Program-made: the position numbers and the translations under genes
Origin: Vibrio echinoideorum
GTDB taxonomy: Bacteria > Pseudomonadota > Gammaproteobacteria > Enterobacterales > Vibrionaceae
Direction: 5' to 3'
Assembly: GCF_024347455.1 (NCBI RefSeq)
Contig: NZ_AP025483.1
Span: 3,410,001 to 3,474,000 of the forward strand
Length of the DNA stretch: 64,000 nucleotides
Shown here: in pieces, positions 3,190 to 19,629 of the stretch
How the letters are laid out: each line of letters starts with the position of its first letter
Position numbering within the stretch: position 1 is the first letter of the stretch
The notes under the pieces: generated by a model
Seen by the model: only the letters and a program-made list of their open reading frames with translations
Database searches by the model: none
What the model was told of the DNA's origin: nothing

Positions 3190-3687
3190 TTAATTTTTAA
3201 AGCACACATAATTCCCTTCTTCAGCCCCTCCTTGGGTAAACAGGAACAATTGCTTGTCTCGAGTTTCAAACCTCAGCTCTACCTTAGAATCGACTAAGGT
3301 ATCAATATTACGCACGAAGATGTCGCTGTGCGTTGGCTTTAGATTCCATTCAATATTGTTAAAGGTCATCGAAAGTAGGCCTTGACGCTCTTCTAGGTAA
3401 TCCAACTCTAAATAGATTTCATACTTTTTGTCTTCACCTTGTTGTGTCGTTAGATGGCCAAATCGGTATATTTCGAGGTTTATATCAGAGATAAATTTCA
3501 ATACCGACCGGTTCTCGATCGCTTTGTATTGTTGATAGCCTTGGGTAATAAAACTCTCATCGAGTTGAGCACATGCCCATCGCGTTCCTGATAGACTTGA
3601 GCGATTAGCTAAGCCTTGATAGAGGATTAACCCGATTAAACTAGAAAGTAAAAAACCATTGAACAACATTACTTTTGTTACCCACAT
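3190..3687 (-). CDS. Small membrane-anchored periplasmic protein, possible partner of the ToxR-like regulator
   Basis: The 165-residue protein has one N-terminal hydrophobic segment (about residues 6-26, LFNGFLLSSLIGLILYQGL) and a predicted periplasmic remainder with two cysteines, C39 and C162, that could pair. I do not recognise a named family. Its start overlaps the end of the preceding gene by 10 bp, which suggests translational coupling. Size, topology and position resemble the small second members of Vibrio co-component systems (ToxS, TcpH, VtrC), which bind the periplasmic domain of a bitopic regulator. That role is inference from layout only. Confidence 0.6.
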   Translation of the reverse strand: MWVTKVMLFNGFLLSSLIGLILYQGLANRSSLSGTRWACAQLDESFITQGYQQYKAIENRSVLKFISDINLEIYRFGHLTTQQGEDKKYEIYLELDYLEERQGLLSMTFNNIEWNLKPTHSDIFVRNIDTLVDSKVELRFETRDKQLFLFTQGGAEEGNYVCFKN

Positions 3688-4148
3688 ATTGAACTCGCTT
3701 GTCTAATCGCTTCTATAATCTTTTCTGGTAACTCATCAACATCTATAGAGTGATTAATGTAGTTGGCATTCTTATTACTGTACTTAGCAAAAGCAAAAGC
3801 CTTAAGTATATATGTCCCATCTTCATAAACAGATTCTGAAATTCTTAAGTAAATATCCGCATAACAAACTGGCAAGTTCTTACTTTTTAATTCAAATTCA
3901 AGTAGACGTTTATCACTAATAAAATGACTATCATCGTGTAGATAAAAGTCCGTTTGCACAATCTTAAAATGTTGATATTGACCAGCATTCATAAAGTCGG
4001 GCTTATTAATAAACGGTTTGAATAAATAAGTGAGTAGTAAGCCGGATATCAGAAATAAACTAATTAGTATATGAAAGACTCTAGTTATCTTGGACTCTAA
4101 AGGTTTATCATTATATTGAATAGATTCATCGACAGCCTTATCAAACAC
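3678..4148 (-). CDS. Bitopic membrane protein, likely sensor half of a split ToxR-like regulator
   Basis: The 156-residue product starts at a GTG (4148). A short charged cytoplasmic part (about residues 1-23) is followed by one transmembrane helix (about 24-46, including LISLFLISGLLLTYLF) and a periplasmic domain with C95 and C155. This is what normally follows the winged-helix domain in ToxR/CadC-type proteins. Here the DNA-binding domain is encoded by the gene immediately upstream in another frame, 23 bp away, with an AAAATAG repeat at the junction. The frame is open upstream of the GTG back to the repeat, so a fused product is possible by -1 slippage. A weak ribosome site (GAAG) precedes the GTG, so separate translation is also possible. 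Confidence 0.65.
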   Translation of the reverse strand: MFDKAVDESIQYNDKPLESKITRVFHILISLFLISGLLLTYLFKPFINKPDFMNAGQYQHFKIVQTDFYLHDDSHFISDKRLLEFELKSKNLPVCYADIYLRISESVYEDGTYILKAFAFAKYSNKNANYINHSIDVDELPEKIIEAIRQASSICG

Positions 4149-4164
4149 TTTAACTTCAATTTTC

Positions 4165-4192
4165 TGATTTTCTATTTTCTATTTTCTATTTT
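4165..4192 (-). repeat. AAAATAG heptamer tandem repeat at the regulator junction
   Basis: On the minus strand there are three perfect AAAATAG units (4192-4172) and a degenerate fourth (AAAATCA, 4171-4165). The third unit supplies the TAG that ends the winged-helix gene. A 7-bp unit changes the frame when its number changes. Reading it by hand: three units stop at TAG, two units stop at a TGA a few codons on, and one unit leads in frame into the downstream membrane gene. Confidence 0.85.
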
Positions 4193-4519
4193 CTCTTTAA
4201 CAGTCGGCTTCTCGCAACGAACCTCCAATACATACCCGATCTTACTCGCAGTCTTAATCGTAACGTCAGTTTCGCCTAACAAAACAAACTCTTTCCTCAA
4301 GCCAGAAATGACATTAGTCAGCGCTTGATCGGTCACTAACGCACCTTCCCAACAGATTTCAAATAAGCGCTCTCGCGTCACATGTACACCTTGATTTTCA
4401 AGCAATAAGTTTAGAACCTCATAAGGTAGCGGCCTCAATGAAATACTCTCTCCACCATGATTTGAAAGAGTTCGGGTCGTCGAATCGAAAATTAAATTAG
4501 AAAAATAAAATCTGTACAT
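4172..4519 (-). CDS. ToxR/CadC-type winged-helix DNA-binding protein lacking its membrane part
   Basis: The 115-residue product is a complete OmpR/ToxR-type winged helix (Trans_reg_C): LRPLPYEVLNLLLENQG, the recognition region VTDQALTNVISGLRKEF, and the wing TIKTASKIGYVLEV. It ends about ten residues after the wing with KIENRK and TAG. Full-length ToxR-like proteins continue into a transmembrane helix and a sensor domain; here that continuation lies in the next gene, -1 frame. It may work as a soluble regulator, as part of a fused protein, or be a broken gene. The divergent outer-membrane protein at 4824 is the obvious candidate target. Confidence 0.8.
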   Translation of the reverse strand: MYRFYFSNLIFDSTTRTLSNHGGESISLRPLPYEVLNLLLENQGVHVTRERLFEICWEGALVTDQALTNVISGLRKEFVLLGETDVTIKTASKIGYVLEVRCEKPTVKEKIENRK

Positions 4520-4823: not shown

Positions 4824-5390
4824 ATGAATAAAACCGTAATTTTACTTGCTACTGTTTCTGCTTTAACAGGCACTCATGCTCTTGCCGCTAAAGATATTTC
4901 AGGCTTTTATTTAGGCGGTGGTTTTGGCACTACCACTTACAAGGATGACATCCCTAATTCAATGCTAGAAGCAGATGGCTCAAGTTTTAAGCTTATTGGT
5001 GGCTATCAATTCAACCGTATTGTTGGAGTCGAAGTACAATATACAAATTACAGCGGAATAAATTTAACTGACATTGACTCTGATATTATTAAGTCAATAT
5101 CAGTTGAACCAACGGCTATTTCTATAGCGACTAATCTAGGCTATACCTTCAATAGTGGTTGGCGTCCATTTGCGACTATTGGATTGACTCAAATGTCCTT
5201 CAACGTTCCAACTAAGGATAAAGTCGCACTTCGCTTAGGTACCGGTGTTGAGTACACACCAGCACGCTTAGAACGGCTAAACTTCCGTATCGCTTACGAA
5301 GTCGATACATTTAATGTGGAGGACCTATCGAGTGATGATATTACGGTGCAACTAGGTACTTTCTATGCAGGGGCAACTTATAAATTTTAA
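4824..5390 (+). CDS. Outer-membrane beta-barrel protein (OmpA-like, small porin-type)
   Basis: The 188-residue precursor starts at the ATG at 4824 (MNKTVILLATVSALTG), giving a signal peptide with cleavage after HALA. The mature part has alternating hydrophobic strands and Gly/aromatic residues (GFYLGGGFGTT, FKLIGGYQFN, VGVEVQYTNYSG, TNLGYTFNSGWRPFATIGL, GAGATYKF-like C-terminus ending in Phe) typical of an 8-strand OMP_b-brl barrel of about 168 residues. It is divergent from a ToxR-like regulator, as expected for a regulated surface protein. Exact function is unknown. Confidence 0.8.
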   Translation: MNKTVILLATVSALTGTHALAAKDISGFYLGGGFGTTTYKDDIPNSMLEADGSSFKLIGGYQFNRIVGVEVQYTNYSGINLTDIDSDIIKSISVEPTAISIATNLGYTFNSGWRPFATIGLTQMSFNVPTKDKVALRLGTGVEYTPARLERLNFRIAYEVDTFNVEDLSSDDITVQLGTFYAGATYKF

Positions 5391-6012: not shown

Positions 6013-6050
6013 CAGATACAGATACAGATACAGATACAGATACAGATACA
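6013..6050. repeat. CAGATA hexamer tandem repeat, six copies
   Basis: Six perfect CAGATA copies followed by CA lie in the psiE-permease spacer, outside any coding sequence. This is a candidate variable-number locus useful for strain typing. Confidence 0.95.
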
Positions 6051-16118: not shown

Positions 16119-16601
16119 ATGAAAACCAAACTTATCACCCGAGAAGGTTATAACAAGCTCAAAGCAGAACATGACCACTTATGGCACGAGAAACGTCCTG
16201 AAATTACTAAGATAGTCACTTGGGCTGCAAGCCTTGGAGATCGTTCAGAAAACGCAGATTACACCTTTAATAAGCGTTTGCTTCGTCAGATTGATCGCCG
16301 AGTCCGTTTCTTAAGAAAATTCCTACCTGATGTGACTATCGTTGATTACTCACCGCAACAAGAAGGTAAGGTCTTTTTCGGTGCTTGGGTCGAAATTGAA
16401 AATGATGATGGGGAAATTAAGAAGTTTCGTATTGTCGGCCCTGAAGAGATCTACGGTGGTGCGAAAGGTTATATCTCTATCGACTCGCCAATGGCTAGAG
16501 CTCTGCTGAAGAAGGAAGTGGATGATGAGTTTACGGTAACCACACCGGAAGGCGATAAAGAGTGGTTCATTAACTCGATTCGCTACGCAGACGACGCGTA
16601 A
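16119..16601 (+). CDS. greB: Transcription elongation factor GreB
   Basis: The 160-residue protein is a GreA/GreB coiled coil plus FKBP-like domain that enters the RNA polymerase channel and stimulates cleavage of backtracked RNA. SLGDRSENADYTF is the acidic coiled-coil tip; the N-terminal coil and RKFLPDVTIVD indicate GreB rather than GreA, as does its position next to ompR and tex. A 7-bp tandem repeat starts three bases after the stop codon. Confidence 0.96.
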   Translation: MKTKLITREGYNKLKAEHDHLWHEKRPEITKIVTWAASLGDRSENADYTFNKRLLRQIDRRVRFLRKFLPDVTIVDYSPQQEGKVFFGAWVEIENDDGEIKKFRIVGPEEIYGGAKGYISIDSPMARALLKKEVDDEFTVTTPEGDKEWFINSIRYADDA

Positions 16602-16604
16602 AGT

Positions 16605-16639
16605 TTATGCCTTATGGCTTATGGCTTATGGCTTATGGC
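16605..16639. repeat. TTATGGC heptamer tandem repeat, five copies
   Basis: One TTATGCC unit and four perfect TTATGGC units lie directly after the greB stop codon, between greB and the 3' end of the CsrB-like RNA. They are outside coding sequence. Confidence 0.92.
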
Positions 16640-16692
16640 TTAGCGTGATTAACCGGCCATCACAGGTCGAGCAGACAAACCCAAACTCCAGA

Positions 16693-17298: not shown

Positions 17299-19629
17299 AT
17301 GAGCCAAGCTATCTGTCGACTGATCGCTGAAGAACTGAATGTTCGTTCAGAGCAAGTCACCGCCGCAGTCAACCTAATTGACGACGGTAACACCGTTCCC
17401 TTTATTGCCCGCTACCGTAAAGAAGTCACGGGTGGCTTAGACGATACCCAACTACGTAACCTTGATAGTCGCCTTTCATACCTTCGCGAACTTGACGATC
17501 GCCGCCAAACGATTCTTAAGTCGATTCAAGACCAAGGCAAACTCACGCCAGAATTAGAGCGTGATATCACTCAAGCCGACAGCAAGACTCGCCTAGAAGA
17601 TTTATACCTGCCATACAAACCAAAGCGTCGTACCAAAGGCCAGATCGCGATTGAAGCAGGCTTAGAGCCACTTGCCGATACACTTTGGAATGAACCACAG
17701 CACGATCCTGAAACCGAAGCCGCTAACTTCATCAGCAGCGATAAAGGCATTGCTGATACCAAAGCGGCACTGGATGGTGCACGAGCGATCATCATGGAGC
17801 GCATTGCTGAAGACGCAAACCTACTTGAAAAGATTCGCCAACACCTCACGCGCAACTCAGAACTCGTTTCACGTGTCGTGACGGGGAAAGAACAAGCAGG
17901 CGAGAAATTCAAAGATTACTTCGAACACAACGAAACACTCAACAAAGTACCTTCACACCGTGCGCTTGCGATGTTGCGAGGCCGAAATGAAGGCTTCCTA
18001 ACGCTGGCAATGAATGCTGACCCAGAGCAAGAAGAAGGTGTACGTGGTTCTTACTGCGAGAACATCATCTCTGATCATTATGGCATTACCCTGAGCAGCG
18101 CACCTGCAGATGCATGGCGTAAGCAAGTGATTAGCTGGGCGTGGCGCATCAAAGTTTCTATGCACATGGAAACCGAGTTGATGGGCGCGATGAAAGAACG
18201 CGGTGAGATCGAAGCGATTGAAGTGTTCGCAACCAACCTTAAAGATTTGTTGATGGCAGCACCTGCTGGCCCTCGCGCAACCTTGGGCTTGGATCCGGGT
18301 TTACGCACCGGTTCGAAAATCGCCGTGGTAGATTCAACGGGTAAAGTTCTGGCGACAGAAACCATTTACCCTCACCCACCTCAAAAACAATACGACAAAT
18401 CTGCGCACGTTGTTGAGCAAATGGTTCGTCAATACAATGTTGATTTGATTGCGATTGGTAACGGCACGGCTTCACGCGAAACAGACAGCTTTGTTGCTGA
18501 TGTGATTAAACGCGGCAACCTAACAGCACAAAAAATCATTGTTAGCGAAGCGGGCGCCTCGGTTTATTCCGCGTCTGAGTTAGCGGCGAAAGAATTCCCG
18601 AACATGGATGTATCGATTCGTGGCGCGGTGTCTATTGCTCGTCGTCTGCAAGATCCACTGGCAGAGCTAGTGAAGATTGACCCTAAATCAATCGGTGTGG
18701 GCCAATACCAACACGACGTGAGCCAAACTATGCTCGCTAAGCGCCTAGATGCGATTGTCGAAGACTGTGTAAACGCGGTTGGTGTTGATGTGAATACTGC
18801 TTCTGCTGCACTGTTAACTCGTGTTGCTGGCCTTTCTAACACCATCGCCCAGAACATCGTGGACTTCCGAGATGAGAATGGTCGTTTTGAAGCACGTACT
18901 ACGTTGAAGAAGGTCGCTCGTTTAGGACCAAAAGCCTTTGAACAGTGTGCTGGCTTCCTACGTATTATGGATGGTAAAAATCCACTCGACGCATCTTCGG
19001 TTCACCCAGAAGCTTACCCAGTCGTCAAAACCATCGCTGAGAAAAATAAGAAAGACATCAAATCTTTGGTTGGTAATACGGACTTCTTACGTGGTTTACA
19101 TGCTATTGATTACACCAACGAAAATTTTGGTGTACCAACCGTAAGCGACATCATCAAAGAATTGGATAAGCCGGGTCGAGATCCTCGTCCTGAATTCAAG
19201 ACTGCAACCTTCGCCGATGGCGTAAATAGCATGTCTGATTTAGAACCCGGCATGATCTTAGAAGGTGTGGTTTCAAACGTAGCTAACTTTGGCGCCTTCG
19301 TTGACATTGGTGTTCACCAGGACGGTTTAGTGCATATATCAGCGCTGACCGATCGCTTTGTCTCTGATCCTCATGAAGTCGTGAAAACGGGGGAAATCGT
19401 CAAAGTGAAGGTGATGGAAGTCGATGTTCAACGTAAACGTATTGCGCTAAGCATGCGTATGAAAGATGAACCCGGCCAAGACAACCGCGCACAACGTTCA
19501 AGTGCACCTCGCACGCAAAACCGCCCAAATCAAAATTCGCAAGGTGGACAACGTCGTCGAGAAGAACCGCAACAAAACGCTGCGATGGGTGGTGCTTTTG
19601 CCGCTGCCTTTGCTAAAGCGAAGAAATAA
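17299..19629 (+). CDS. tex: Tex family transcription accessory protein
   Basis: The 776-residue protein has the Tex layout: N-terminal helical part ([21 protein letters not shown]), YqgF/RNase H-like domain ([17 protein letters not shown]), helix-hairpin-helix ([16 protein letters not shown]), and a C-terminal S1 domain ([26 protein letters not shown]). Tex binds RNA and affects transcription; the precise role is unclear. The C-terminal tail of about 50 residues is rich in Arg, Gln, Asn and Pro and probably disordered. Linkage to greB is conserved in gammaproteobacteria. Confidence 0.95.

Follow-up and report, generated by a model that had tools for sequence, protein, structure and literature searches.

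Co-component signalling systems are a class described from enteric pathogens, in which overlap of the two genes, with the ATG of the partner lying over the C-terminal Cys codon of the regulator, is a tendency with exceptions, ToxR/ToxS among them (PMC9214523). Other systems of this kind are the bile-sensing VtrA/VtrC of Vibrio parahaemolyticus and TcpP/TcpH. Here, we describe a locus in a 64,000-nucleotide stretch of the Vibrio echinoideorum genome (NZ_AP025483.1, positions 3,410,001 to 3,474,000; the whole stretch is referred to as the window, and coordinates are counted from its first letter) that is a co-component signalling cassette of the VtrA/VtrC–ToxR/ToxS kind, and of which the window carries a disrupted copy. 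The regulator is broken into a DNA-binding and a sensing half at a tandem AAAATAG array, probably by a recent, strain-level slipped-strand event that uncoupled sensing from DNA binding.

Relatives of the regulator were sought in 227 Vibrio genomes, each from a different species. With a threshold of E 1e-20 or better, and 20 candidates scored in genomes that hold many, the winged-helix half gave at least 36 matches in at least 31 genomes; among the matches listed, 34 of 36 lie in open frames of 277–347 codons, the remaining two being the window copy and a ribose-linked paralogue. The sensor half gave 33 matches in 32 genomes, 31 of them in frames of 277–343 codons, together with the window copy and a weak, short match (G002, E 9.8e-4). 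The regulator comprises a winged helix, a membrane helix and a periplasmic domain on one chain in all 11 closest orthologues (winged-helix identity 63–75%, 274–282 codons from the aligned ATG), an architecture that the window allele lacks, and it is likewise one chain in all 12 named loci, six of which are shared with the 11. Alignment of the orthologues and a count of AAAATAG units, as suggested in an earlier note on this DNA, were performed across Vibrio species: the array is present in none of the 11 closest orthologues, where two-copy repeats of 6 or 7 nucleotides (nt), seen in six of the genes, were the sole tandem repeats found. An in-frame TAA was observed in another winged-helix match, at G000:C2:1929188-1929430 in the same genome as the window and at G017:C2:1577258-1577500 in one relative.

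The two halves are also joined in a protein nearly identical to them. P0039, a 275-residue, one-chain database protein from an 11-member cluster whose longest contig measures 3,596 nt, is identical to the winged-helix open reading frame (ORF) at 114 of 115 positions (its residues 1–115) and to the sensor ORF at 154 of 156 (residues 120–275), and P0090 matches the partner ORF at 99%. The small differences between P0039 and the window pieces speak against the idea that P0039 represents the same assembly after correction. As both the orthologues and P0039 are single chains, the split is a property of the allele and not of the family design, and the joined state is most simply ancestral. The sensor half, the partner and the outer-membrane gene alongside show no decay; with the downstream half almost unchanged, the gene either was broken recently or is present here in one of the states of a variable tract. 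The one-chain orthologues, the 99%-identical protein and the undecayed sensor half and partner together support the view, put forward in the earlier note as one of several, that the gene was recently broken; the findings run contrary to two separate genes in all relatives, an outcome named there as one that would count against the proposal.

Both regulator ORFs were confirmed where the earlier note had placed them (Table 1), as were the complete winged-helix domain of the first and the membrane-spanning, sensor-like character of the second. The coordinates give a gap of 23 nt and a change to the −1 frame between them, and the sensor ORF contains a single strongly hydrophobic stretch, starting at residue 24. 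Its GTG corresponds to an internal Val of P0039, and no ribosome site was seen in the 22 nt inspected by eye upstream. Two further genes were absent from that description: the partner ORF, sharing 10 nt with the sensor ORF, and a divergent outer-membrane gene, for which the downstream of the two candidate starts, 4824, is likelier, judged by eye, as a signal-peptide-like stretch begins there.

Table 1. Features of the disrupted cassette, in window coordinates.
Feature	Position	Strand	Details
Winged-helix DNA-binding half of the regulator	4172-4519	minus	115 aa; PF00486 E 5.7e-12; ends at a TAG inside the AAAATAG array
Exact period-7 tandem array (AAAATAG on the minus strand), break point	4167-4194	minus	28 nt run
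Membrane helix and periplasmic sensor half	3678-4148	minus	156 aa; GTG start; −1 frame relative to the winged-helix ORF
VtrC/ToxS-like partner ORF	3190-3687	minus	165 aa; predicted one membrane helix and eight-stranded lipocalin-like barrel
Divergent outer-membrane beta-barrel gene	4734 or 4824 to 5390	plus	PF13505 E 8.7e-21

Comparison with the described systems places the cassette in their class. The first ORF carries an N-terminal OmpR/PhoB-type winged helix, and the gene downstream is predicted to encode a membrane-tethered, lipocalin-like partner with a fold of the VtrC/ToxS type, the model being close to ToxS (Foldseek 1.7e-05). The partner ATG sits over the C-terminal Cys codon in the window, in all 11 closest orthologue loci and in all 12 named loci, so that these genes overlap where those of ToxR/ToxS do not. 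The predicted model of the sensor ORF shows a helix at residues 18–43, followed by a strand, a helix, three strands and a helix, and the periplasmic halves gave no sequence match to solved chains. Invariant Cys pairs are present in the sensor (residues 95 and 155) and the partner (residues 39 and 162), whereas VtrA is reported to lack the conserved pair (PMC9214523). The window regulator differs from VtrA also in being split, and the cassette differs from VtrA/VtrC in having an outer-membrane gene as its neighbor. ToxR belongs to the same winged-helix superfamily, profile A1 matching ToxR chains with E 9e-08, second to CadC (1.9e-10). The label 'ToxR-like' given in the earlier note was therefore right in kind, but the co-component cassette is the more exact frame, its partner gene lying outside the coordinates considered there. 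With this locus the class gains a cassette that was found in Vibrio as well as Aliivibrio species; at the 11 loci inspected for such a link, it is accompanied by an outer-membrane gene.

The array at the break point is longer than previously described. Three complete AAAATAG units, the number reported earlier, do span 4172–4192, but the exact period-7 run extends over 28 nt, and Tandem Repeats Finder delimits an imperfect array of 6.1 copies at 4155–4198. No period-7 array of at least 21 nt appeared in 60 order-3 Markov simulations of 64 kb, placing the array beyond chance, and it is the only match in its own genome to three AAAATAG units with up to one mismatch. We infer that the array caused the split by slippage, and recently. 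In the proposed course of events, the intact cassette would have consisted of a bitopic regulator (winged helix, membrane helix and periplasmic sensor), the overlapping lipocalin-like partner and the divergent outer-membrane protein; slipped-strand mispairing in the A-rich linker between the DNA-binding domain and the membrane helix would then have built the AAAATAG array and put the DNA-binding and sensor halves in different frames. A periplasmic signal would no longer be coupled to transcription in the window allele, because the DNA-binding half would be released as a soluble, probably inactive fragment. One study reports that the DNA-binding half of VtrA by itself stays in the cytosol and fails to activate, and that forced oligomerization restores activity; it also cites an earlier report that the N-terminal region of VtrA activates transcription of its target (PMC5693285). 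By analogy with the inactive VtrA half of that one study, the winged-helix ORF of the window probably does not activate transcription. The window thus presents a natural disrupted allele in which DNA binding and sensing have been separated.

Among the alternatives, a contingency (phase-variable) switch fares best, although we consider it unlikely: array length would change frequently, the population would hold both joined and split regulators, and slippage would turn the sensor on and off. Arrays in coding sequence are a known means of switching genes, and the array is a pure, non-triplet one inside a gene, at a flexible linker, with joined and split alleles both existing among near-identical sequences. 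There is precedent in the same class of system, as TcpP/TcpH is likewise subject to repeat-tract frameshifts that inactivate one member; these fall in tcpH of V. cholerae (PMC5854121). The tcpH tract is, however, a homopolymer in the partner gene, whereas that of the window is an array of 7-base units within the regulator gene, and only possibly reversible. Against a switch, the array is short and has not been kept at the same place in any of the 11 orthologues.

The occurrence of arrays elsewhere bears on the same question. AAAATAG in three or more units was found in 12 of the 227 Vibrio genomes, its own included; the other 11 carry 3 to 7 units, in every case outside ORFs of at least 100 aa, which counts against a switching role for the motif. 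The same motif read backwards, used as a control, occurs in six of the 227, so AT-rich arrays of this kind are not rare in the genus. From the own genome, 464 kb were sampled (the window and 20 further stretches, ~8% of the genome); a search there for units of 4 to 11 bases yielded 12 arrays, whose units measure 6 to 9 bases, four of them inside the window. Six of the 12 have non-triplet units; four of these six touch no ORF of at least 100 aa, again speaking against a switch, and the two that do are the focal array and one at L125. The latter, an 8-base array (TTAACGAA, 40 nt) at L125 18076-18115 (G000:C2 ~318.1 kb), covers the final 8 bases of a 233-codon ORF (18108-18809, minus strand) and can be counted in favor of switching; with only two ORF-touching non-triplet arrays, this ~8% of the genome shows no clear pattern of in-gene switching arrays. 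The focal array reads as a sporadic repeat that chanced to grow in a linker. A more elaborate form of the switch, which we hold to be a little less probable again, has the linker array toggling the entire co-component sensor between two states: anchored in the membrane and responsive to the signal, or reduced to a released DNA-binding fragment that is blind to the signal and might even compete dominantly for the divergent outer-membrane promoter. Were the array variable, the locus would allow the switching of a sensor system by DNA slippage to be tested directly; were it not, it would be an ordinary recent gene loss.

Three further arrays in the window lie outside ORFs of at least 100 aa: a second 7-base array, TTATGGC, at 16605-16642 (5.4 copies, period-7 run 16611-16642), just behind ORF 16119-16601 and ahead of ORF 17299-19629; a pure CAGATA array at 6013-6050 (6.3 copies); and a pure ATAGAAGGT array at 2358-2384 (3 copies).

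A sequencing or assembly error is very unlikely. Short tandem arrays are an error-prone context and the allele comes from a single assembly, but in a comparison with G112 eight neighboring genes were free of frame breaks as far as they were covered (spoT to residue 527 of 708, rph to 15 of 238), and the array has a 7-base unit rather than being a long homopolymer. The idea, raised in the earlier note, that two chains work as made, the winged-helix regulator being soluble and a distinct membrane sensor pairing with the VtrC-like partner, is more improbable still. Both ORFs are open, a 23-nt spacing permits reinitiation, and soluble winged-helix relatives that stand alone are encoded by the own genome and six others, to which may be added the earlier report, mentioned above, of an activating N-terminal region of VtrA. 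Against this, none of the 11 closest orthologues is in two parts, the second ORF has no clear start site, no ribosome site having been seen ahead of its GTG, and the DNA-binding half of VtrA, according to PMC5693285, needs its membrane part or forced oligomerization to activate. Programmed −1 frameshifting at the array, which would join the halves, is the least credible explanation, since the four-A run before the TAG and the −1 position of the second frame are outweighed by the lack of a canonical X XXY YYZ heptamer on inspection by eye, of a stable structure in the stretch (z +0.48, with 130 of 200 shuffles folding as well) and of conservation, the relatives being single frames.

The surroundings of the cassette were compared among the orthologue genomes. 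The chromosomal neighborhood of the window is shared by seven of the 11, in two forms; the neighboring genes, psiE apart, are ones that we take to be rph, yicC, csp, a permease gene, gmk, rpoZ and spoT. In the first form the cassette lies between psiE and csp or yicC (window, G112, G009, G103, G031 and G222). In the second (G215 and G234; L087 and L088) it separates the permease gene from psiE, and after it comes another copy of the permease 3′ end, 85% identical over 177 and 169 nt, as if the cassette had been inserted there. In the 12-kb stretches of the other four orthologue loci, no gene that flanks the cassette in the window could be found. DNA identity to the seven genomes is 85.5–93.0% in the flank at 6.1–10.5 kb and 82.8–93.2% in the other flank, and 65.6–68.0% in the cassette where aligned. 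Judged from these comparisons, the cassette appears to move and to evolve fast. The divergent outer-membrane gene adjoins the regulator in all 11 loci and, as it travels with the cassette, is a likely target of the regulator.

Natural soluble relatives of these regulators were also observed. At seven of seven loci, L106-L112 (G006, G112, G005, G011, G017, G000:C2 ~592.4 kb and G018), there is a short, stand-alone ToxR-type winged-helix ORF with no clear membrane helix; the genes downstream are presumably rbsD and rbsA of ribose uptake.
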